From Liolophura sinensis (lineage: Eukaryota > Mollusca > Polyplacophora > Chitonida > Chitonidae): 64,000 nt of DNA. Shown here in pieces: positions 31,275 to 63,930 of the stretch. The DNA is taken from positions 7,018,017 through 7,082,016 of the forward strand of contig NC_088307.1 in the NCBI RefSeq assembly GCF_032854445.1, given 5' to 3'. A program made the translations under genes and the position numbers. The stretch's first letter is position 1. Each line of letters starts with the position of its first letter. The notes under the pieces are model-generated. The model did no database searches. It worked only from the letters and a program-made list of their open reading frames with translations, and was not told the DNA's origin.

Positions 31275-33014
31275 TCAGGTGACTTGTTGCCGTTGGTTAG
31301 TGGGATGCTGTGGTCGTGCAGACATCTTTAAGTCTCTAATCAGTGTAACTGGCAGATCTAGTTGGTCCAGACTGTCCTGATTCACATGGCCTCGCACGAT
31401 CTGCATGCAGCGTTCACGCAGGGAAAATACTGCAAAAGCAGAAAACCATGAGAATGTATATGTGCATCAGAAATGCACATATAGTACAGCTGTACTACAG
31501 GCCTGTATTAATACGTCTTTCTAAATGAATAAATGATTAAGCAGAAGATGTTTGAATCAGGAAAGGAAACCTGCCAAAACCAGATTAAACAAAACACAGA
31601 TGCATTTAAACCAGTTAAAATAAACAAAAAAACAGTTAAAACTTAAAAACCACATTAAATATAGCTCTTATAAATTAAGATTTTAAATACCATTTCATGA
31701 TGATGTACATGAAGTTCTCATACAAAAAAAACAAATCTTTTCCTGATTTAATCACAGCATCACCAGTAAGGCTGTCCAATGATTGCCAGTCAATTTTCAC
31801 ATGGAACACATTTGCCAACATGTGTGTGGTCCCCATCAGAATCAAAATTATCTCATTCTGATTCGTCATTAAATTAAAATCAGATGCACTTTATTTGCCA
31901 CTCTTTCTCATTTGTTCATACACAACATGTCAGTATCCAAACACTAACTACTGCAGAAGACCAAAAACTTCACCACAAAAAGAGCATTTTATGGCAAATG
32001 CTGTAATTTACATTTTTTTCAATATTATATCATCCTGCCTTCTCAATAAAACCTCAAACCACCTTTCAAAGATCAACAGAGCTCTGAAAATCCGGAAATT
32101 TGAGCGGCTTAGTCAAGGATGAGATCACAGGTCATTTACAGTCATTGTATTTCATCTAATGTTTGGCCTGTAATAATGGACTTTCAGAAGCCCAAAATGA
32201 TACTTTTCAAGCCAAATGAACATGTATGTTTTTCTGATATGGAATTAATCAACATTCTTAAAAAAAAAACTCTAAAGTAGCACAGTAAGGTGGATGAATC
32301 AATCAGAATCAAGCAAAATGTGTCACATGAAAAAATATAACCTATAGGTGAAATACAATAATTTTACAGCATGAGACAGAAAGGAAATGGGGGGGGGGGC
32401 CTCCGTGGCTCAGTTGGTTAGTGCTCTAGTGCAACGTAATGACCCAGGAGCCTCTCACCAATGCGGATGTTGTGAGTTCAAGTCCAGCTAATGCTAACCT
32501 CCTCTCTGGCCGTACTTTGGAAGGTCTGCCAACAACCTGTGGATGGTCGTGGGTTCTCCCTGATCTCTGCCTCCTTTCCCCCCACCATAATGCTGGCTGC
32601 AGTCGTGTAAGTGAAATATTCTTGAGTACGGTGTAAAACACCAATCAAATAAATAAATAGACAAAAACTGGATGTCCACTTACCTGGTATTGTGATATAA
32701 ACCACCTTCCTTTGTGGAGGGCCTCCCCCTTCACTACTCCAGCTTGTTGGCTCAAACACTTCCTTCAACTGTACAACCATTCTGTCCCCAGAGTCAGCAT
32801 CCCTGAATATCCACGGGTGGCCAACAAATGTGTTCACATCGACAAACTGACATGACAGCAGTGTCTTGTACTTCATGCCAAACCCCTCATAGTTCAACCA
32901 GATTATGTCCACTCGCCTACGACTTCTGTTGACAAAGCGCACAAAGGCCTGGTGGAGAGATCTGCCTGCTCGTAAGGGACAGGGGTTCTCTCCTTGGTTA
33001 TCTTCCCCTGCCAT
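31275..33014 (-). CDS. VHL: von Hippel-Lindau tumour suppressor homologue (VHL), 2 exons
   Basis: Substrate receptor of the CUL2-elongin B/C ubiquitin ligase that recognises hydroxyproline in HIF-alpha. Exon 1 is 33,014-32,684 (331 bp) and exon 2 is 31,429-31,275 (155 bp, stop TGA); the joined frame is 161 residues, close to the human beta plus alpha core. Beta domain: FVRFVNRSRRRVDIIWLNYE (human IWLNFD-like), Y in GMKYKTL (human Y98), and GHPWIFRDADSGD, which keeps the human H115 and W117 equivalents. Alpha domain begins IPVFSLRERCMQIVRG, matching human LPVYTLKERCLQVVRS including the elongin C-binding L158 and C162. Splicing is CAG|GTAAGT to TTTGCAG|TA, phase 1. An in-frame upstream ATG exists at 33,077; I chose 33,014 because similarity starts soon after it. 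The intron contains a full SINE. Confidence 0.93.
32399..32660 (+). mobile_element. Full-length tRNA-derived SINE in VHL intron
   Basis: The head reads CCGTGGCTCAGTTGGTTAGT with an A-box TGGCTCAGTTGG, and the B-box is GTTCAAGTCC at 32,475-32,484. Then comes the shared central part (GGAAGGTCTGCCAACAACCT) and the tail TTCTTGAGTACGGTGTAAAA ending in AAATAAATAAAT. Antisense to VHL. Confidence 0.88.
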
Positions 33015-33739
33015 GACCAAACCACACCCTACTGGACAAGGCCTACTTTTGCACCTAGATGAAGAGTCAACTAACATGCTAAGTTACAAAAGACAAGTAC
33101 TTGAATCTGGGAAGTCCATTTTTAAATCAAATTTAAGGAAATCTATCTGGATTCAGATAGGGAAAGAGTTAGAAAAGCAAGATCTGTACATGTCTGAAGA
33201 ATTCAGATTTCTATGCACTTTCTGTGAGGTTACTGGAATCCACTTGGATTCTGGCAAAACACTATCCCTGAACAGCCTGAAGTAACAAATTTCTCCTGCA
33301 TAGATTCAAAATATAAAATTTTGCCTCTGTAAGATCTCCTGTAAAATCTGTGATAATGTGACAATCGTTTTGACATCAGAATTGCATAATAAATTACCAA
33401 AATACTCCATAAAAGATTAAAGAAGTACATTAAAAACTGACATTTTTGGCCAGCAATATTTCCATCTTGTTCCTGTTTCCTGTTTTAATGGATGAGCTAA
33501 TTTGATCTGATCAATTTATTTATCGGATTTCTGTTTAATGCTTTCCTCAAGGAGTTTTAACTTGTACAAAGTCTGTCAATCTTACTTCTGGAGGTAAGCA
33601 GATGGCCCAGGGTAAAGCTCCAACCTTTGACAAGTTACTGATAAACTCTCTGACATGTACAGGTCTGCACTCTGCACTGATGGAAACATGAAGTTTTGAA
33701 AAGACAATAGATTGCACAAACAGTCACAAAAGTGTCATC

Positions 33740-40452: not shown

Positions 40453-40904
40453 CACTGATCCAACATTGAAAATGGTTTTAATTAGTTAGGCCTCTCTGGT
40501 TACGCTAACCTTGGCAAAACTTTCATTCTTATTTGTTTTGATTGTGTGCGCGGATACGTTTGTGTGCACGGATACGTTTGATTTTCTTATACGCCAGTCA
40601 AGAGATCCACCAACACCAACATTTACAGAGAAGCTTTGAGAGACAGGCGGCCGCATAAAGGTTACTGCGACAAATGATAACTAGCTCCAACCAGTTCCAC
40701 GTGAATATGTATGTGAATGCCGACATACTTCGTGTCAGTTCGCAGTCCCGAAAAACAGTATCTGGGTCTTACCTCTCCTGTTTCAGGATGTGATGAAGAC
40801 GCCCTACACAAACACAGTATACTTGTAACAGATCGACCAGTAATTACGTGCAATTTATCCCAAACTCTTATGAAGCAAAATACCAAATACTAGAGGTGGT
40901 TGAA

Positions 40905-41662
40905 CAGACGCCGTTACCACTGTGCTAACATTGTGAATGGGATTGAACGGTTGATCTTACCACTGCCCTATTATTGTGGTCGGGATTGAACGGACGCTCT
41001 TAGCACGGTGTTAACACTGTGATATGTGATTGAACGGACGCTCTAGCACGGTGCTAACACTGTGATATGTGATTGAACGGACGCTCTTAGCACGGTGCTA
41101 ACGCTGTGATATGTGATTGAACGGACGCTCTTAGCACGGTGCTAACACTGTGATATGTGATTGAACGGACGCTCTTAGCACGGTGCTAACACTGTGATAT
41201 GTGATTGAACGGACGCTCTTAGCACGGTGCTAACACTGTGATATGTGATTGAACGGACGCTCTTCGCACGGTGCCAACACTGTGATATGTGATTGAACGG
41301 GCGCACTTACCACTTTGCTAACATTGTGATCGGGCTTGAACAGACGCTCTTATCACTGTGATGACATTTTGATCGTGATTGAGCGCACGCTCTTAGCACG
41401 GTGCTAACACTGTGATATGTGATTGAACGGACGCTCTTAGCACGGTGCTAACACTGTGATATGTGATGGAACGGACGCTCTTATCACTGTGCTAACATTG
41501 TGATCGTGATTGAACGGGCGCTGTTATCACTGTGCTAACATTGCGAGCGTGATTGAACGTGCATTCTTATCACTGTGCTGACGTTGTGGTCGGGATTGAA
41601 CGGGCGCTGTTATCACTGTGCTAACATTGTGATCGTGATTGAACGGGCGCTGTTATCACTGT
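40905..41662. repeat. 44-bp satellite array, left part
   Basis: Unit like TGATTGAACGGACGCTCTTA followed by GCACGGTGCTAACACTGTGATATG. Spacing measured between GATTGAACGG at 41,071 and 41,115 is 44 bp. Central copies (41,000-41,300) are nearly identical; both edges are more diverged. The array resumes at 44,741 after an inserted block. Confidence 0.92.
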
Positions 41663-42642
41663 TGTTATGTATGACTATTTAACATTTTCATGTACTGTTA
41701 GTCTGCGGACCTTTGTGTTAAGCATAACAGGCCCTGTTATATGTGTACAGCGCGGACCGGATCGAAAGCACCTTGTTCAATGCTTCGTTTATTTCATTGG
41801 CTGTTAATTCTGTGTTTAAGAATAGTTGAATCCACCTGGAACGTATATAAGCCGTGTTTTCTGTGCAGAGAGGAGGTATTTTTGCTGCATCCACTGGGAG
41901 CCAGGAGAGTGTGCGACGCTCTCGTATCGAGTCCATTATATTGATATGAGCTGATGATGCCAGTTTCGTTTGGGAGGACAGATTTTTATGCCGGCACCGT
42001 TTGTGTACCACAGTTGTACTGATGTCTGGTTTAAGTGAATTTCTGCGGAAGTCACGTTTATTGGTGTTCGGATCTTTATTATGATTATACAGTGTTGACT
42101 GTGTAATTTGTTTAACACACTGACCTCACCTGACCGACAAGGTCGTCACGGACTCTAAACTGAAGTTTTCAGTTTTGCAAAGGACGTTTGTTCTGCCACA
42201 AGGTGACATTACTCTACGCCTCTGAACGGCTCGTTTGTGAGTTTCTGCAGGAGCTGTGACTGTTCTAAAGTGGACTATACCTCCATGCCTGGATTTACCC
42301 TGTGTTGTGCGGGTGTGACGTCATTCAAAGGCTTGACTGTTCCAGTTGGACACAGACCCCCATTACAACTTCCGTTTTTCAGTAGGGATGATTGTAGTTC
42401 TGTGAATTTTAGGGTATAAAGTCTTTTTTTGCTCCCAGGCGTCCATTTTTGGTGCACAGGTGCATGCTTGGTATTAAAATGCTGGAAACTGTCTAAACTT
42501 TGAGGAGGTATGAGCTTTATTGATGAAAGTTTGAAATTCTGGGCGAGAGGACACAAGGTGTGAGGTAGTGATGAGGCTGCGAGTGACGTCCCCTTGGCGT
42601 TGCTAGGCACGCCTCCCAGCTGCCGGCATGGAAAGGTCCAGA

Positions 42643-42800
42643 TTTTGACGGTCAACCTATGTCAAGATTTTTATGGCTTCTTTCTCACAGGCTGGGCCAG
42701 GTATGCACCAAAGCTTAATGGCCACGGAATGTTTGGGACTGAGCTACAGCGCTAGACGTTAACATTGTCGCTTATGAAAAATTAATGGGGGTCCGAGGCC
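42643..42800 (+). repeat. 158-bp direct repeat, copy 1
   Basis: From TTTTGACGGTCAACCTATGT to GGGGGTCCGAGGCC. It differs from copy 2 at one base by eye (GCACCAAAG versus GCATCAAAG), spacing 1,624 bp. Together with the left end at 42,348 it would make a complete 453-bp short element with the same inverted termini. Confidence 0.95.
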
Positions 42801-43058
42801 TGTACTGACGAAGTCACCAAAATGTGAAAAATGTCACTATGCGCTTAGATTTCGCAGCAGCCTGATAATTTTTGGTGGGTATGTCTGTGATGTGTTTTGC
42901 ATTGATTGGGCCGTTTCATAGCTTCTTGGGGCTATTTACATTTTGAAAATATCCATTTTGATGAAAAATCGGTAAAATGCTGTTCAGCGTAGGGTAGCAT
43001 GTGTATAGGCATCCTGAAATGAACAACATGCAACGTTCTAGTATTCCTACGCTTGAAA

Positions 43059-43442
43059 ATGGAGACGTTCAGAGCAGAAATTGCTGCAAAAATTGAAAGT
43101 TTCAGTGTTTATAGTGAAAACGGAGCCTGTCGAGTGTGGACTGGACCATTGACGAGGGATGGTCGATATGGTCTTGCCTCCTACAAAGACCCCGTCACAC
43201 ATCGATGGAAGAAGAAACACATCAGTAGACTTGTTTATATGGCCAGACAGGGGCTGTCACATTTAGATCCCAAGCTTGATTGTTCACACGTGTGCCACAA
43301 CACACGCTGTGTAAATGTGGACCACATAAGCTTGGAACCGCATTGTGTTAACAATAACAGGCAGCGCTGCTGTCTCGGCCATGGGCAGTATGCAAGGTGC
43401 ATGTTGCATTTAAGACTGAGCAGGTTGGTTTCCCCTCATTAA
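43059..43442 (+). CDS. I-PpoI-like His-Cys-box homing endonuclease
   Basis: Predicted DNA endonuclease of 127 residues from the ATG at 43,059. The C-terminal part reads CSHVCHNTRCVNVDHISLE, then N-N-N-R-Q-R-C-C, then H-G-Q; this matches the I-PpoI zinc loop and active site (SHLCHNTRCHNPLHLCWE, then DDNKGRNWC). The expected general-base His (second H of HVCHNTRC) and metal-binding Asn (in VNNNR) are present, as are the zinc-ligand Cys and His. The N-terminal part has CRVWTGPLTRDGRYG and KHISRLVYMA, the beta-strand DNA-contact region of such nucleases. The frame is whole with no internal stop. Such enzymes are best known from group I introns in protist rDNA; here it sits in a compact mobile-looking element without an rDNA context. 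Confidence 0.82.
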   Translation: METFRAEIAAKIESFSVYSENGACRVWTGPLTRDGRYGLASYKDPVTHRWKKKHISRLVYMARQGLSHLDPKLDCSHVCHNTRCVNVDHISLEPHCVNNNRQRCCLGHGQYARCMLHLRLSRLVSPH

Positions 43443-43580
43443 AAATAATAAATAACAGATTGTTTTAGATTTTGCTCAATTTCTGTTATCATTTTTTAAT
43501 TTCTTTCATAAGCAACAACAGCAGTGACAAATTATATACAAAATTGGCGGTTACAAATATCTAGTGTATGTGTGATCTGT

Positions 43581-44279
43581 TTAGGTGTTGTCCAGTTGTC
43601 CCTTGGCATAGTCAGTTTTTTCTTCTGGATTTGAAAGCCTGTACTCAATGTGCTCTCGAAGTTTTCTGGCTGTATTGCGGAGTGATCTCCCCTTAACTGT
43701 CTGTCGCTTCTTATAAACCTTGTGGTACTGGTTCACCCTTTCAATCTGTTGTACTGTTCTCTCGCTGCTAGGTGAAATACTGGCGCCGACAGCTTGGAGT
43801 TTGGCAGCTGTGGACTTGTCCTGGCCATTGTTAAGTCTGTGGATTGTGGACGCCGCCCTTCCCTCCATATTTCTGCTGTAGTTTACATTCTTGGGCAAGG
43901 AGACGCTGAGTGATCTGTTGACAGCTTCGCACTTTTGAGTGCTGGTGTTCATCCGGAGACTGGTGACGGCTGTCTCGCTCAACCTCATGTGCAGTACTTC
44001 GGTCAATAGTTTCCTGTCGTTGTCATCCATGTTAAAAGGGCAGAGTTTACTGGTGGATAAAAACAGGGACCTCTCCCACCAGCTGCTGGTTTCCCCTCCG
44101 GAGCAAACCACACTGTTCCTGCGGCATTTGGAACAGTCCCCACCGTAACACCTGACCGTTGCATCCACAACCCTGGGTGGGCAAGTTTTTATTTTCCTCA
44201 TGTCACCAATGCGCTCAGACGTAAGTTGAGAAAATATCAAGCTACACCTGGCCTTAACATCCTGACTTTTGACGGTCAA
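43581..44279 (-). CDS. Mutator-like transposase C-terminal fragment or relative
   Basis: A 232-codon open frame on -; the first ATG gives about 206 residues starting MRKIKTCPPRVV. It contains a CYGGDCSKCRRNSVVC cysteine cluster, SSWWERSLFL, then NTSTQKCEAVNRSLSVSLPK, NVNYSRNMEGRAASTIHRLN, and a basic tail. The block 'T-Q-K-C-E-x-x-N-R, then SLPKNxxxSRN, then IHRxNNG' resembles the carboxy-terminal part of Mutator-like transposases of invertebrates (SSQANESLNN, then SKAPKSRHYGG, then AAVAQKNEG). No DDE core is present, so this is either a truncated transposase or a co-opted accessory protein. The frame enters the 158-bp repeat at its 5' end. Function unknown; assignment by remembered similarity. 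Confidence 0.5.
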   Translation of the reverse strand: MTVKSQDVKARCSLIFSQLTSERIGDMRKIKTCPPRVVDATVRCYGGDCSKCRRNSVVCSGGETSSWWERSLFLSTSKLCPFNMDDNDRKLLTEVLHMRLSETAVTSLRMNTSTQKCEAVNRSLSVSLPKNVNYSRNMEGRAASTIHRLNNGQDKSTAAKLQAVGASISPSSERTVQQIERVNQYHKVYKKRQTVKGRSLRNTARKLREHIEYRLSNPEEKTDYAKGQLDNT

Positions 44280-44424
44280 CCTATGTCAAGATTTTTATGG
44301 CTTCTTTCTCACAGGCTGGGCCAGGTATGCATCAAAGCTTAATGGCCACGGAATGTTTGGGACTGAGCTACAGCGCTAGACGTTAACATTGTCGCTTATG
44401 AAAAATTAATGGGGGTCCGAGGCC
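44267..44424 (+). repeat. 158-bp direct repeat, copy 2 (right end of element)
   Basis: See copy 1 at 42,643. Homology stops exactly at 44,424 where the LTR-like sequence resumes, so this copy marks the right end of the inserted element. Confidence 0.95.
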
Positions 44425-44740
44425 AGTTCTGTGTAACCTGTGTACTGTGTTCGCGTTCGCTAACCTAGCGAAGTACCTGACTGGGACAATTTGTGACTTG
44501 TGTGAATTGTGTGTTTATCCCATGGTCTTTACGTTGGATCTCCTGGAATACGTTCCTTGGGATGCAAAGGTGAACTGGAAACTTTTAAAGACCGGTAATA
44601 CTGATGTGTATGTTTTTTTTATGTTGTTGTTGTTGAACTGTCTGTAAAACTGTACGTCTCATTTTATATACAAAGCATTGTTTACATTGTGATATTGAGT
44701 CACTGAGTCTGTTTTCTGTTGCTGTTTTCAATACCGTAAC

Positions 44741-44995
44741 ACTGTGCTGAGATTGTGATCGTGATTGAACGGGCGCTCTTACCACTGTGTTGACATTGTG
44801 GTCGGGATTGAACGGGCGCTGTTATCACTGTGCTGACATTGTGATCGGCATTGAACGGACGCTCTTATCACTGTACTGACATTGTGGTCGGGATTCAACG
44901 GGCGCTGTTATCACTGTGCTGACATTGTGATCGGGATTGAATAGGCGCTGTTATCACTGTGCTGACATTGTGGTCGGGATTGAACAGGCGCTAGT
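44741..44995. repeat. 44-bp satellite array, right part
   Basis: About six more diverged units (CACTGTGCTGACATTGTGGT, then CGGGATTGAACGGGCGCTGTTAT). It continues the 40.9-41.7-kb array across the inserted block. Confidence 0.9.
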
Positions 44996-47892: not shown

Positions 47893-47971
47893 AGCCCACG
47901 CACGTGCGTGGTAAAGTCCAGTTTGCCTACTTCTAGTTCGTCAGCAGTGAGACCAGCAGCAAGATGTAGGT

Positions 47972-50900
47972 ATGGCGTCCGCGGAGGAGGCTTTGCCGCG
48001 TCGTGTGACCCGGGAGCTAAACGAAGCCTCGCTGAAACTTATGGAAAGAACAGGATACACCATACGGCAAGAAAAATGGCAAAGAAAGTACGGCGGTCCA
48101 CCTCCCGACTGGGAAAGCTCAGCTCCTTTAAAGGGTTGCGAAATTTTCGTCGGAGGTATTCCAAAAGACTGTTACAAAGACGAGCTTGTTCCAGTATTTG
48201 AGAAGATAGGGAAGATTTACGAACTGAAACTCGTAATGAACCCCCGCTCTGGATCCCATAGAGGATATGGATTCGTTATATACACTAACAAAGAACACGC
48301 GAATCAAGCGGTAAAGGAGCTTAGCAACTACGAAATTCGTAAAGGCCAGCTCTTGGGTGTTTGCAAATCTCCCGTAAGTCATGTAATTTCCACTACAGAA
48401 GCTTTTTTGGTTGTCTCTTCATTGCAAATTAAAACACATTTAATTGCCAATGTAGACGGCACCAGACGTCGGAAATATCGGTTGGTTAGTTGTAAAATTC
48501 ATGAGTAGGTATCACAGTCCAAACAAATTTGACCTTTATGTAAGCCATTATTTGAAAAGTTATAATTGAACTAAAGTTTTTTGTATCAAAGGGGTATTTT
48601 GTATGGGTGGATATGTGTAAAATGTTGCGTAACTTCTTGAAATTTCTTATCGTCTGCTCTTTCATTTTCCGTCATGAGAAGGTGGTGTGTGCGCGTGCGC
48701 GCGTGCAGCATTTGTTGCATTTTCTGTTATGAGAGGGTGGTGTGTGCGCGCGCGCGGCAACATTTCTTGCAACAAGTGATTTCTTTTGTATGGGAGGCTG
48801 CGGTAATAATTAATATAGTCACTTATGGCTTAAAAGCACTGATGCGTCGTCATCTTGTACATTAATATTGTGCATATTTGTATGACTGGAATAATATTTA
48901 TGTTGTGCATATTTGTACTACAGAGGAGAGTTTTGCACCTGAGGAACCTTATGTCGATAACTACAGAAGACAAAATTATAAAGCTGTGCAGTCAAGTTGT
49001 GGGAAGGGACGATGCTGTGGAAAGAGTAGAGAAGATAAAAGATTATGCATTCATTCAGTTTAGAGACAGAGATGATGCTATCATGGCCATGACTAAACTT
49101 AATGGTGAGAAAAATTATTTATTTTGGAGTTGTGTTGATTGGTTTTGGATAAATACAAATGCATTAACGGAAGTATATTTTTTCTATCGGTAGGCGAATG
49201 TAGTTTTTGTGTGCATTTATAGAGTGTGATATATTTCCATTCGGATAGTTCTGTTTCTGATAAGTAAAAGTTCATTTTCGTTTGTCAGTCGCATGTGGCA
49301 CATTATTATGTTTTAACTTGTTTTTCACTTGATTGATGTTTACAGAAAATTACATGATAGAATATCCACCAACATCTAAGGGAGAGTATTTGGAAAACAT
49401 GCTAACTCAAGTAATTAAGATGAAACAGTGAATAACTGACGCATCGCTTGCCTATAGGATGTTTGATACTCCAACTACGTACAGGAAATGGCTCACAATT
49501 ATGGGACAGACTTACATATATTTACAGAAGAGCATATACAGTATAAATTCACACTTCAAAACATAAGGTGTGGGCATTCTCTAGAATATTTGTTCGGATA
49601 AATTTCTGTATAAATTGGCTTTTATGTTAGCTTATTATTAACTTAATATCCACCCCTCATTCAACATAGATGGGAAGGTCTGTCAGCAACCTGTGAATGG
49701 TTGTGGGTTTCCATTAGGCTCTGCCTGGTTTCCTCATGCTATAATGCTGGTCACTGTCGTATAAGTGAAATATTCTTGAGTACAGCATAAAAATGCCAAT
49801 CAATAAATCATTCAGCATGAAAAGAAGCTGTTGAACATTAAATGATCAAATGTTTAAAAGAGGGAAGCTGTTTCAACAGTTACATGTAATAGGCTGAATA
49901 TTGAACCCAAGCTCCCAGGACCATTTTGCCAGGAATTTTTTGAGAAAATAAGAAGTTTTCTTTGGGAGAAACTCTAGGTAGACTGTATCTGGAACACTTT
50001 TTAACTGATGTGTAGCATTTGTACTACGTCCTCATTCTTTCAAGAAATAAAATTAAAGGAAGATCAAGGTGAGAAGGCATTATATAATAAGTCATATATA
50101 TATTTCTCTCTAGGAATGAATGTTGAAGGTGCTTGCCTTGAGGCTGCATGGGCGAGAAGAAGAAAGTAGGTAAGAAATCATTTGGTCAATGTTGCTGCCA
50201 CATCGTGAAAATCGTCTCAAATGTGTAATTCAGGACAGCCCAGCGATCATCCTCTCCCATAGGTTAAGTTTGTCTGCAACATAGTATGTGGAGTAAACTG
50301 TGTCAAAGTTGGAAGAGTTCAAATGTTTTCAGATTGAGAGTTTGTGGAAGGTATTTGGTCGGTAACCGGGACCTGTCCACATTTTTCCCCCATCAGCTTT
50401 CTTTTAACTCATCTGTCGTGTACGTGTGAAGTAAGCTTTGCATATAAAAACCAAATTATTTATATATATTTATATCAGGTAAATAATTGAATTTTACTAC
50501 TGATGAAAATTCTTTATTACAGGCTAATCAGGACTGGCACTTGGGTGAGGTTGATAGAGCATACAACAGAGACCAGGAAGCGTTGGAATCTTGGAAGCAG
50601 AAAGAAGTATCATATGTCAGGGTAAGAGTTCCTCATATGGTAGGCTAGGGGGTTCTGTTATGTCAGGGTAAGAGTTCCTTGTATGTTAAGGTAGGTTGTT
50701 CTCATATATCTGTAGGGGGTTCTCATATATCTGGGTAGGAGGTTCTCATATGTCAGGGTAAGAGTTCCTCGTATGTCAGGGTAGTGGGCTCTGTTATGTC
50801 AGGGTAAGAGTTCCTCGTATGTTAAGGTAGTGGACTCTGTTACGTCAGGGTAAGAGTTCCTCATATGTTAAGGTAGGGGGTTCTCATATATCTGGGTAGG

Positions 50901-55739: not shown

Positions 55740-58447
55740 CTAATTCTTAAGATTTTTCAGGATTTCCTCTATTTCTCTGTCAATATCTCTAATACTGTTG
55801 GATTTCTCCTTAGCACTTCTCCTGAGGCTGTTGGCTCTTGCCACATAGGTAATGTCCCCTGTTGCCTCTGCCCTCTCTGAAAACTCTTCTGATGACTTGT
55901 ATAAACCTGCTATGTTCTGTTCGATTCTCCTTTTCTTCATTTTCAATTCCTCTAACTGGTCCATTGTTGACTTTCTTTTCTGTGCTTGTTTATGTGATTC
56001 TTTCTGTCTTTTCACATCATCTAGGTGGGCCATATACTTCTGCCTTGCACTACCTACAGCAAGCACTAGAGGCTTTGTAAGGTTTACACCTGAAATACCA
56101 CCAACTGCTGAGAGGTGATCAAGGACTATTCTCTGAGCCACGAAAGATCTTTCTTGCAAGTTGTCTGTTGCAACTTCTTTATTCACAGAGAATCCCCGCT
56201 CCACACTTGCCTGGCCATGTGACAAAATAAGAAGGCTTTTGACAACTCGCCATAACTTTTGGCTTTGTGGGCAAGATGGTCATGCAAAAAAACATCAACT
56301 CTCTGGGTATCAAGCTTTGGATTAAATCCACTAAAGCTTGCCTCTGAAATTGGAACTTCTTGATCTCTAATCACATCATCACAATTTGACTCAATGATTT
56401 TCTTACTGTCCACCAGACTCTTTAACAGTCTCTTCATCTTTGCTACACAGCCAGATTTGTCCAGAACCATCTGTCTCGGATCTAAACACTTCATGTTACG
56501 AACAAGAGTGTAACTCAATGGTGATTTGTTTTGAAGTTTCTCGACAACGCGAAGTAATGCTTCACGGTGACCCTGTCGCAGCTCAATGAGTTGACGATCT
56601 GAAATTTTCTTCTTTGAATGCAACCGCTTTACTTCATTTTCTGCTGAAAACCCAAGATCTACTGCTGATACTTCTTTCCACAGCTTTTTGTCTCTTACGT
56701 CAAGCTTAATTAGTTTAAGTGGGGTATCAATTTCTTTTAGAACATCTGCTTTGATCACTGACTGAAGCAGGCTTTTTAGCAAGTAGGAGAGGTCATCTGA
56801 CATGAAGGGCAGCAGTGGTCTTTCTGCTTGATACATGGTCAGGAATGGTGTCAGCAGTTTGCTTACTGTCAGGAACATATGGAACATATTCTGACATCCT
56901 TCCTGCACAGTTTGAAATGACTTTGTCCCAGGGTCTTTCACTTTTTTGTCTTGAACAGCCTTAACAAACATTTTCACACTGTCGAACATCTCCAATGCTC
57001 TTTCAGCAACAGGGACATTTTCCACCCACCTGTGCTTACAAAACATCAACGGAAATGTGTTGGAACCTGTCAGTTTTGAGAAGTCTTCTCGTCGTGCAGG
57101 GGAATCTTTAAACAGCCAGTACAAAGATGAAAGGAAATTGTGAACACCATTGTCAGATTTAAAGAACCCATCTTTCAGGGCACCGTGGATAACATGAAGT
57201 CCACAACTGCCAATGTTCAGAAATTTGTTTCCAGTGTCTTTTTCGACCTTGTCTTGGAGCATATCAAAAAGTTTCCAATTTACGGATGGCCCATCCATTG
57301 ATACCTGTTGTAAATTTGAAAGATTCATCCTCTCAAGATCTTCACACACACTCTCAAGTAGGGCTTCAGCATTTGTATGGCCCAAGAACTGTGATCCCAG
57401 ATATCTAGTGGAAACACAATTTGTGTCCCAAAATCTTACATGTAGGTCAAGCTGCTCATTCTTCGTTACCTTATTGAGGCTTTCATCGAAGCAGAGCACA
57501 AATTGCTCTTGTTTTACATGACTTTCCAACAAGGATTTGAAATGTGGAGCAAGTCCAAAACAACACAAATATGCTGTTTTCTTCTCACCACATGTAAATC
57601 GTTTCGCAATTTCACTATCTGGAAACATGGTTTTGAAAACAGCTTGAATCCCTTCATTGGATTTGTAGGAATGGTGATGTTGTACAGTGTGAAGCGTCCA
57701 TATGATCTCTGCTTTGACAGTCTCCTCTCTCTCCACAAATGATGTTAATGTTGAGCTGATTGGTCGATCTGAAAAACATGAATTTAAAAATAATTACAAC
57801 CTGTTAATGATTTTGTTTCTCTTCCATTAAAATCTGAAATATTAGATAGATACTGAAAAACAAAAAAGAGGAAGGGAACAACTATTGACAAACTTAATTT
57901 GATGGTGTCTTCCCTGAATAATACAAATTTGCTACTGTGCACAAATACAGGGCATGCAGAACCCAGAACTGTTTATAATATTAACGTATAGTTGTTATGT
58001 GAAACTGTATTATTAAGGGGGGACTACTCATGTATTTACATCAAGTTTGTCATAAGTTGTCCCCCCTGATTCGAAATATAACCAGCATGGACCACACATT
58101 ACCTTGTTGTTGTTGTTGTGGCATCGGCCGTGACGGACCAGCAGCTGCAGGAGGTTGACTGCTACCTGCCTCATCTGTTGGCCTCTAAGAACTAATAAAA
58201 TCCGTTATGGATGGGGTCCGCAAGGACATTTTACTGCGCATCAGAGCAATGTGCTTTTTGCCAGACATGTGGACTCGTAATGCTGCTTCCCCATTGTTCC
58301 CAGGCCAAATGATTTGACACAAACTTTACATCTCGCCTTGTGTTTATCTGGATCTTTTTCCAACCACCCGACATATTCACTGTTTTCCAGCCATATTTCG
58401 TGGAACAAACAATAGCCAGGCATGTTTAACATTGTTAGCAAGTTCAC
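55740..58447 (-). pseudogene. hAT transposase with BED-like finger, broken by about two frameshifts
   Basis: Read on -: an N-terminal zinc finger (58,447 downward) with KARCKVCVKSFGLGTM, then, after a frame change, an H-x5-H end in VHMSGKKHIALM, then a 517-residue frame 57,736-56,183 with FVLCFDESLNK, VSMDGPSVNWKLFD and LNIGSCGLHVIHGALKDGFF, typical of the hAT DDE/RNase-H core with its inserted helical domain. A final 161-residue frame, 56,225-55,740, has SHGQASVERGFSVNKEVATD, the hAT dimerisation motif, plus a basic coiled coil. The last two frames overlap by 43 bp, so one frameshift separates them and another breaks the finger. Otherwise well preserved, so the element is young. Confidence 0.88.
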
Positions 58448-59630: not shown

Positions 59631-61640
59631 TCATACATTGTTACCAGGCCGTCTGCGGTATACCGGCAAGGCGCCGCTCGGCAGCAAGTCTTTGACGATC
59701 CGCATGCCGTGCTCTCGCCACACCGTCTGTAAGGTCTTGTACTCTGCGTCTGTACACGGCTGGTGGGTGAGATCATTGTCGAAAGCATGCTGCGGTGGCA
59801 GTGTGGTTTCCTCCAGCCGGGCCAGGGAGTCTATGTAGCTGTAACAAAATTTCCCTTTGGTCACGTGACAGTCATAAGCTTTCACCCACTTGTCGTAACT
59901 GTAATTCGGGGCCAGGTAATTCCGAATGTCCAGAAATTTCAGCTGCGGTGTGGTGAGGGCCATGTGATTATTGTTCCGCTTAATCACATACTCCAAATCA
60001 CCGCTCTGGACCAGGTGGGGGTAAAGCTGTTGTTTGATTAAGTTCAGGTCATAGTTACCCGAGTTAAAGCCGAGGACGGGGAGCTGGTCCATATAGGTCA
60101 CGAATCTGTCCCGCACTCGGCGTGTGTAAGACGGTTTCTTCTCGTCGGGATCGATCCGCTCGTCTAAGGCGTCCAGGATGTAAGCATAACGCTCGTGGAG
60201 ATAGGCGCTACTGATCTCGCTGATGTCGTTGAGGTAAGCCATCATGTCCTCGACGAGTGCCTGGGGATCGCCGGTGGAGATGAAACACACGGGCTGGTCG
60301 TAATCCGGTACATTAGAGTTGACGCTGACACTCATGGGGGTGTGTTGAGCCGTCCATTCCGTCGAGTCAGTCGCCGCATCGTCCACCGGGTTCACCGGAG
60401 CCAAGTACGCCTCAAAGTCGTAACACGCTCGGTACGGGAAGATGCCGTCGTCACCGTCCTGGAGTTCGATCCCCATGTCCGCCAACGTTTCGAAAATGGT
60501 GGGCCGATTGCGGAAGACACCCCCCGGGTACTTTCGTCGAATGGCGTCGGTGCACGTTTGACCGTGCCGTCGTAACTCCCGCAGTGTCGGAAAACTCTTC
60601 TGGCACACCTGGCAGGTGAAAGATCGAGCATAACGCCCCATGTCTTTGATATAGCTGAAATGTCGCTGGTACAGGTTTAACCGCAGGGTAGGGGGAGAAT
60701 AGCGCTCGGCACTGCGGTGAATGAGTTGTGCTGAGTACGACCTGTCCATGGGGATGAGCTGGTAGACTTGAATGTTCACTTGAAACAGGCTTTCCACCGT
60801 GTCCAGCGCACTGAGGGGTACTCCGCGGAAATACCTTGGCTCCATCTCCTCCAGATACCTGCGGTAATACACCCCAGCCTGGTGTTCGCAGTTATTGGGG
60901 TCGGCCTGGTCTAGATGGACGGCCAGACACCGAAACAAACACCAATAGTCCCTGTAAGGACCATTATCTCCACCCACCAACGTGTGTAGCCACTTGTTTC
61001 CTTTCAGGTAAGAGGGTAACGTTACCCCACCTTTACCGATAGGTTGATGTGGCAGTTTGTGGACGAAAAACAGCATGTTGGTGATGAGGTCGACGGTCCA
61101 TTTCGTATTGGGGTGTTGTTTTTGGGCCAAGGTAAGCGGGTCTTGGGTGAGGAGATGCTGGGTGTGGAATCCTCGCAGGTCAGCCCGACTCGCCACGCGG
61201 TACGGTGCGTCGAGTACTCGGGTGTTGTTGGTGCTCGGGTAATAATACCGCACCTGGCCCGTCCCTTTGTGGCGGAGGATATATCCAAAACTGTAATTGA
61301 TAGTGAAAGTAGTTGGCTGGTCTTCGTAAATCTCGTCTACATAGGCTGGGATAGCACCGAGATCACTCAGTCGGTAATTATAGCAGTCTTGAATTGGTTT
61401 GTGGCGATGGAAATGCGTTCTGATCGATCGCCAATGCCGCTGGTACAACTCCCGTACGTCACTGTCACCGCTCGGTAAGACAGCCTCGTGAGGCTGTACT
61501 GGGTCGGGTTCGAACTGGGTCGTTGGACTTTTTTTCTTTTGTTTTTTCTTTTCTTCTTCTTTCAGCGAAGTATCCGCCGCTAAACTCACTTGAGCTTTAC
61601 TCGTTGGGGTGGTGGTAGATGAAACAGGTCTCTGTAACAT
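59631..61640 (-). mobile_element. Polinton/Maverick fossil: protein-primed type-B DNA polymerase, N-terminal and exonuclease part
   Basis: A long - frame of 669 residues. Residues 1-60 are basic and low complexity; 60-340 match the N-terminal region found ahead of Polinton polymerases (DYWCLFRCLAVHLD near 231-244); a C2H2-like finger FTCQVCQKSF-LRRHGQTC lies at 341-363. The 3'-5' exonuclease motif I (CYDFEAYL, near 406) and motif II (VLGFNSGNYDLNLI, near 522) follow. The palm domain of the polymerase is not in this window, so the element is partial. Its inner edge abuts the third copy of the A1CF-like gene's 3' flank at 59,630. A fossil, but the long frame suggests it is not very old. Confidence 0.85.
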
Positions 61641-62217
61641 AGAAGGGTGTAGACGTTATAACCAAACCCTAGACATACTCTATACATACTATTGGCGATC
61701 GTCTCAAGGATGGTAAATGAGTGCCCGATTTAAATAACAACAAATCATAATTAATTTTCATGGGATATTTTAAATTAAGTGAAATAAAGTAATACAATGT
61801 GTTTAAATGAATTGTGACACGAGTTTGCTTTACACAAATATGAACTAAATGATAACTCTGCAAAACCCCTATACAGTTTTGGAACAAAAAAAATAAAGAA
61901 AATTACTATATATTACTCTTTCCAGACACGTATTGTCGTTTGACATTTAGAGTTATGCCCCTTATTTCCATTATTCCAACAAAAGTAGTCGCCCCTGCTA
62001 TGCGTATTCCATCAGGAGTTATCCCCCTTGTTTACATACATTTGACATCGCACACATTCGTGAATTTCTACTACGAAATACATAAGGAAATATCCTCTAA
62101 GCTACTCAGGCTTTCTATCTAGCTTTACTGGAGTTACAAACTATTAAAAGACACAACTATCCTTAAATATATTGAACTAAAACTACTGTTATTTCCATAA
62201 GAAATCTAGCGATCTCA

Positions 62218-62570: not shown

Positions 62571-62842
62571 ATTATTCCCCCTAATTCATCCCCAGCCTGA
62601 AACAAACAAATCATGTACATTTATTGTGCGCATTTTTTTGGAAACGGACCCTTTTTGTCACCAAGTCTGAGATGACCAACGCTGAATGCGGAAAGCAACT
62701 ACTCATACATGCACATGATTCAACATTTGGACTTCAAAGACTATCCCCAAATTCAACATACTCGTCGTTATTTAAAACGAATTAGTATGCAAAGAAACGA
62801 GAATGAAAAAAAAAATCAATGCCCACCAACAACAATGTCAAC

Positions 62843-62915
62843 TGGCCGACATGGGGCTCGAACCCGTGACATTCGCGTTAGTAGCCCGACGCTCTGCCGA
62901 CTGAGCTAACCGGCC
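62843..62915 (-). tRNA. tRNA-like sequence, anticodon loop ACT; pseudogene or SINE head
   Basis: Exactly 73 nt read on -: GGCCGGT acceptor, TAGCTCAGTCGGCAGAGC D-arm, loop CTACTAA, and GGTTCGAGCC T-loop with a good B-box. The acceptor stem pairs over 7 bp with two G-U pairs. The anticodon stem and T-stem each have one mismatch. The loop would read ACT (serine AGT), yet the molecule has a short class I variable loop, unlike true tRNA-Ser. A T9 run about 35 nt downstream could end a pol III transcript. Best read as a tRNA-derived repeat or pseudogene. Confidence 0.55.
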
Positions 62916-63162
62916 ATTCATGCAATACAGTGACTTTTCAACCTCCATAATCACGCGGCGTCTGCTGTATCGCGTCTTTTTCTCTTTTTTTTTCGACACA
63001 CCGACATTTAAACAATTGATCAGCGTTGACCTAGTTTTCGCTGAGGATTAAAATCGCGCATGCTATGTTACTCCGCCATAATTCCTTCAAGAACAGGAAC
63101 TACATCCCCACATACGTATATCAGGCAGCGGAAGATCAGGTCTCCGTGTTTTGTTTTTTTTT

Positions 63163-63657
63163 TCAAAGATAATTTTTAAATAAATTAAAATAAAAAATAA
63201 AAAGAGAACTTACCGGGCCGTGTTTCCCACGTTGATGGGTCTGCCAATCCCACAACCGGTAGAAAGACTTCTCGCAATCTTCGCAATGCCACACACGTTC
63301 TCGTTTGTTGCCATGCCGCTGTTGATGACGGATCAAATTCGCCCGGCGAAAAAACGCCCGGTCACAGGTCGGACAGGTGAATCTTTTGTTTGTCTGGGGC
63401 TGGTGACGCGTCCGCTGGTGCCGGAGCCAGTTATTCCGCAGGGTAAAATGCTGGGCACACACCCGGCAAAAATACTTCTCCGTCGTCCTCTTCTCCTTGT
63501 CACCGTGCTGTGTTTTAGCATGACGTCGCCAGCTATCGCGTCGGGTAAATCCTCGATCGCACACCTCGCACGTAACCCCTTCTCGCACGCTGATTGGTCC
63601 GTTTTGTGGGCCCCCCCCCCCCCCCCATTGGGCCGTTTTGGGGCAAATCCGGCTCAC
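63163..63657 (-). CDS. Four-finger C2H2 zinc-finger protein
   Basis: A 164-codon frame with four C2H2 fingers: CEVCDRGFTRRDSWRRHAKTQH; CRVCAQHFTLRNNWLRHQRTRH; CPTCDRAFFRRANLIRHQQRH; CEDCEKSFYRLWDWQTHQRGKH. The true exon most likely ends at the GTAAGTTCT donor near 63,212, so the last residues of the frame (SLFIFYFNLF) are probably intron. Fingers 2-4 have a repeated aromatic or W/N helix pattern. A DNA-binding role is implied by the fold; the target is unknown. A G-rich tract lies just inside the start (63,610-63,627), making the exact start uncertain. Confidence 0.65.
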   Translation of the reverse strand: MSRICPKTAQWGGGGGPQNGPISVREGVTCEVCDRGFTRRDSWRRHAKTQHGDKEKRTTEKYFCRVCAQHFTLRNNWLRHQRTRHQPQTNKRFTCPTCDRAFFRRANLIRHQQRHGNKRERVWHCEDCEKSFYRLWDWQTHQRGKHGPVSSLFIFYFNLFKNYL

Positions 63658-63930
63658 CCATTGGTCCGTTTTGGTGCCCGGGAGCTCTTTTTGAGCTGTC
63701 CCACTCGACTTTACAAGCCGACGTTTTGCCTCTTTTTTTCTCTCTTTTTTTCCCTATACTGTTATACGGTTATACTATACGCTAGTCTACTACACACATC
63801 ACTCCTTATCACTCCTTATCACATATGCCCCGCGGCGTGGAAAAAACCCACCAAACTTCCCCAGCGAATGTTTGGAAGGGGTGACGTCACACCAAGCGTC
63901 AATCCGCTAAAAAAAATTTTTTTTTAATAC
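63163..63930 (-). mobile_element. Zinc-finger element with CRE palindrome (right copy)
   Basis: Inverted relative to the 45-kb copy, sharing CATTCGCTGGGG, TTTTTTCCACGCCGCGGGGC, GATAAGGAGTGATAAGGAGT and the finger exon's 3' end with its GTAAGTTCT donor. TGACGTCA lies at 63,882-63,889. Several inverted CCAAT boxes (ATTGG) lie at 63,593-63,668, upstream of the finger frame, as expected for a promoter. It lies on the same strand as the Polinton polymerase 1.5 kb away, so it may be part of that element. The outer boundary is not defined. Confidence 0.6.

Follow-up and report, generated by a model that had tools for sequence, protein, structure and literature searches.

A probable internally deleted, non-autonomous KolobokP transposon copy in the chiton Liolophura sinensis

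The locus lies in a 64-kb stretch of DNA that was analysed as a whole (the window). It is a compact unit bounded by direct repeats, between which two convergent open frames are found (Table 1). The element has GG...CC termini. Its inverted ends match at 15 of 18 positions (42348-42365 versus 44407-44424) and are flanked by AGTT, as the earlier note had reported; no duplication longer than this 4-bp AGTT was found in the 12 bases on each flank. The full-length long terminal direct repeat (LTDR) carries inverted ends of its own, GGACACAGACCCCCATTA and TAATGGGGGTCCGAGGCC. Inverted ends alone prove little, because 12 such pairs (15/18 or better, identical 4-nt flanks, spacing of 300-6000 bp) occur in the window, this element included, and some of the other 11 are real repeats. 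The boundaries are firm because of the direct repeat, which the earlier note does not mention: BLASTN within the window aligned 42643-42800 with 44267-44424 over 158 bp at 99.4% identity. The second LTDR retains only its outer end. The two copies differ at one of the 158 positions, which suggests a recent origin or a recent homogenisation. The unit is bounded by this repeat, and the claim that both frames belong to one transposable element is upheld. BLASTN found no further LTDR copy and no second copy of the element in the 64-kb window.

Table 1. Positions of the element and its parts in the window
Feature	Position	Strand	Length	Remarks
Whole element	42348-44424		2,077 bp	flanked by AGTT on both sides
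Left target-site duplication (AGTT)	42344-42347			identical to 44425-44428
Right target-site duplication (AGTT)	44425-44428
Full-length LTDR	42348-42800	-	453 bp	3' LTDR in the orientation of the transposase
Internal region (INT), remaining	42801-44266	-	1466 bp	between the two direct repeats
Nuclease frame	43059-43442	+	127 aa
Putative transposase C-terminal remnant	43581-44266	-
Shortened second LTDR	44267-44424	-	outer 158 bp	other 295 bp missing

The element is flanked by minisatellite arrays at 40896-41659 and 44740-44992 (TRF), whose units of 44 and 43 bp look alike by eye. Further away in the window, several pairs of inverted repeats whose 4-nt flanks match are situated between 28.0 and 37.5 kb, and a frame at 32478-33083 (-) contains a VHL beta domain (PF01847, E 3.8e-16). 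An RRM-domain frame is found at 47951-48508 (+) and a C2H2 zinc-finger frame at 63163-63753 (-). The 536-aa open frame at 56183-57793 (-), which has no Pfam match at E <= 0.01, is presumably transposon-like. A 674-aa open frame at 59631-61655 (-) has weak C2H2 finger matches, the best of which (E 9.8e-4) is below the cut-off, and a tRNA-Ser-like gene is located at 62842-62916 (-).

The nuclease frame matches PF05551 with an E value of 4.3e-8 and 33.9 bits, the cut-off being 27 bits, in agreement with the proposal that it encodes a His-Cys-box nuclease related to I-PpoI. Residues R57, H77, C79, H80, N81, C84, H89 and N98 are identical in all 30 aligned nuclease sequences, and the catalytic and first-zinc residues (S76, H77, N98, C24, C79, C84 and H89) are kept. 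The equivalences of the catalytic residues follow the main text of Kojima and Bao 2022, Mob DNA 13:24 (PMC9587614), in which the KolobokP transposons were described. The modelled fold best matches I-PpoI, followed by I-HmuI (Foldseek, VIA-align).

The earlier note had called the nuclease ORF intact. The frame is indeed open, but an intact domain is doubtful, because the second zinc site is five residues short. As aligned, no residue separates C104 from C105, compared with five in 29 of 29 relatives, the gap between the first two Cys of the site lying where MAFFT places it. Both second-site Cys are found in 27 of the 29 relatives, and the model confidence falls to 74 at the gap block. Judging from the alignment, the gap is a property of this copy and not of the lineage. 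The second zinc site is probably damaged and the nuclease function lost.

Two features of the relatives' contigs are recorded here. For 7 of the 29 nuclease relatives the longest contig measures 4,164-4,653 bp, a length within the range published for autonomous KolobokP; such contigs might represent collapsed repeats or circles. For a relative of the transposase tail (P0021) and one of the nuclease (P0032), the longest contig is in each case 19,736 bases long and may be one and the same.

The partner frame runs from stop to stop over 43581-44285 (-). Pfam yields no match to the frame itself, either for 43581-44279 at E <= 1 or for 43581-44264 at E <= 10. Nevertheless, of the 23 relatives found at E <= 0.01 (37-60% identity), 6 carry a precomputed PF20700 match, among them proteins of the gastropods Patella caerulea and Gigantopelta aegis, and the suggestion that the partner corresponds to the C-terminal part of a PF20700-type protein proved sound. 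Nine of the 23 relatives entered the alignment. Five of these (P0002, P0003, P0006, P0009 and P0012) extend upstream through both a TTDGD and a DxxH motif, which are absent from the partner, and P0009 and P0012 reach further, through a CCHC-like stretch; P0020 starts within the TTDGD stretch, and P0004, P0005 and P0015 stop short of it. The PF20700 match spans the upstream TTDGD/DxxH part in six of seven relatives scanned, and the partner frame opens just past the part so covered, at (S)QDVKARC. What the partner keeps is a Cys-rich finger (C39, C44, C47 and C54, counted from 44264), present in all 10 rows of the alignment, and the Glu of QKCEAVNR (E113), present in nine rows, with a gap in the tenth.

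In the longer relatives the order of motifs is CCHC stretch, TTDGD, DxxH, Cys-rich finger and Glu. The same order has been described for Kolobok transposases, namely Asp, CCHC finger, Asp, C/DxxH, finger and Glu, the zinc finger after C/DxxH and before the last Glu being present in almost all Kolobok lineages (PMC9587614). For this reason TTDGD is presumed to be the region of the second catalytic Asp and E113 the last catalytic residue. As far as sequence comparison can tell, the partner represents the tail end of a DDD/E-type transposase that has lost its front in this copy, and this transposase should be inactive because the upstream catalytic regions are gone. The motif order also suggests that PF20700 belongs with Kolobok; "Mutator" is the Pfam label of this family. 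Mutator/MULE (MuDR) elements have target duplications of 8-11 bp, unlike the 4-bp AGTT at this locus. Neither PF20700 nor Mutator is named in the main text of PMC9587614.

On the minus strand the two LTDR copies are the same up to 44267 and 42643, respectively, and then diverge, so that LTDR sequence passes straight into transposase codons at the 44266/44267 junction, which falls within the Ser codon of SQDVKARC. Transposase-derived sequence starts at about 44266, where LTDR identity ends at 44267. The partner had previously been assigned to 43581-44279; this frame is open, but a start at 44279 takes in codons of the LTDR. The simplest account is a single deletion, which would have removed 295 bp of the LTDR, any INT sequence preceding the gene, and the transposase front. 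A short palindrome, TTGACGGTCAA, is found at 42645-42655, and its repeat at 44269-44279 begins 2 bp from the junction. The element's own nuclease might have caused the deletion by cutting inside the LTDR near TTGACGGTCAA, faulty end joining then removing the remaining LTDR and the transposase front. This origin is very improbable; if true, it would point to the natural site of the nuclease.

The published plan of KolobokP is LTDR-INT-LTDR, with inverted ends inside each LTDR and an INT that codes for a DDD/E transposase and a convergent, downstream I-PpoI-like nuclease (PMC9587614). The LTDRs are about 450 or 660 bp long, the termini are 5'-RR and YY-3', and the target duplications of 3-4 or 4-5 bp show no strong target preference (PMC9587614). 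Solo LTDRs and multimers in other parts of a genome are a further mark of KolobokP. The present element likewise has LTDRs at both ends, a 453-bp LTDR with its own inverted ends, RR/YY termini (GG...CC), a short target duplication (AGTT), and a putative transposase remnant with a convergent I-PpoI-like nuclease downstream. The structures best matching the nuclease are the same two, I-PpoI and I-HmuI, to which HHpred pointed for the KolobokP nuclease (PMC9587614). In the Pacific oyster, the autonomous KolobokP families measure 4,022-4,748 bp, whereas lengths of 1,738-3,261 bp are given for the non-autonomous families (PMC9587614); the length of 2,077 bp falls within the latter range and under the former. 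Gigantopelta aegis, the source of one of the PF20700-bearing partner relatives, is listed as a KolobokP host (PMC9587614). Unlike intact KolobokP, this copy has one shortened LTDR, lacks the front of the transposase, where the catalytic Asp residues and the CCHC finger would lie, and carries a nuclease with one zinc loop reduced in length. Unlike classical Kolobok, in which the duplication is TTAA (PMC9587614), the element is flanked by AGTT. Kol0, KolobokE, KolobokH and KolobokD share the DDD/E transposase and have other accessory proteins; it is for KolobokP that LTDRs and a nuclease resembling I-PpoI have been described (PMC9587614). Its own missing parts aside, the features that can be checked on this copy agree with KolobokP as published. 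There is thus little doubt (probability roughly 0.94) that the element is a KolobokP DNA transposon in an internally deleted, non-autonomous form, matched to KolobokP by the published description.

The short inverted ends would serve a KolobokP transposase as recognition sites for inserting the unit, with a short duplication of the target such as the AGTT seen here. For the nuclease, the published proposal is cleavage within or at the LTDRs that promotes unequal crossover or circle integration, which would yield multimers; induced crossover is called speculative by the authors themselves (PMC9587614). Here the catalytic front would have been lost to a deletion extending from within one LTDR into the gene for the transposase. 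With that front deleted and five residues absent from the nuclease zinc loop, any mobility of the copy would depend on transposase provided in trans by another copy.

The deleted form might instead represent a propagating non-autonomous family that keeps its nuclease in use, nuclease-driven recombination aiding its spread while transposase is provided in trans. Both frames are open, the unit retains its two ends and a clean duplication of 4 bp, and the LTDR copies are nearly identical, as would suit such a family. However, the nuclease lacks the five loop residues found in every aligned relative, and the window holds no second copy, making this explanation unlikely. Far less credible is a two-component element of a new superfamily, proposed earlier, in which the nuclease cuts and the partner binds the ends. 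The two frames are the longest with protein relatives inside the unit, yet five of the nine aligned partner relatives reach upstream across the TTDGD and DxxH motifs, the junction joins LTDR to transposase codons, and such nuclease-transposase pairs are already published as KolobokP, where transposition is credited to the DDD/E transposase (PMC9587614). The statement that no named superfamily has this pair consequently falls, as does the assignment of cutting to the nuclease and end binding to what appears to be a transposase tail.

It is equally hard to credit that the nuclease is a conserved host gene, or the homing endonuclease of a group I intron, lying beside transposon debris. I-PpoI is indeed intron-encoded (PMC9587614), but the nuclease sits inside the LTDR-bounded unit, and a scan of the window against Rfam at curated gathering thresholds yielded only the tRNA at 62843-62915 and no group I intron. 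Unlike I-PpoI and other His-Cys box homing endonucleases, the nuclease is carried by a DNA transposon and not by a group I intron, and the spacing of its second zinc loop is changed in this copy.

The pairing of nuclease and transposase is therefore real but already described, as KolobokP (PMC9587614). The claim of a new transposon superfamily is removed, and the apparent compact two-gene element is a deletion product. The KolobokP lineage itself stays of interest, the role of its homing-type nuclease being still a proposal (PMC9587614). This copy calls for caution, as it illustrates how an internal deletion can give the tail of a transposase the look of a separate small protein.
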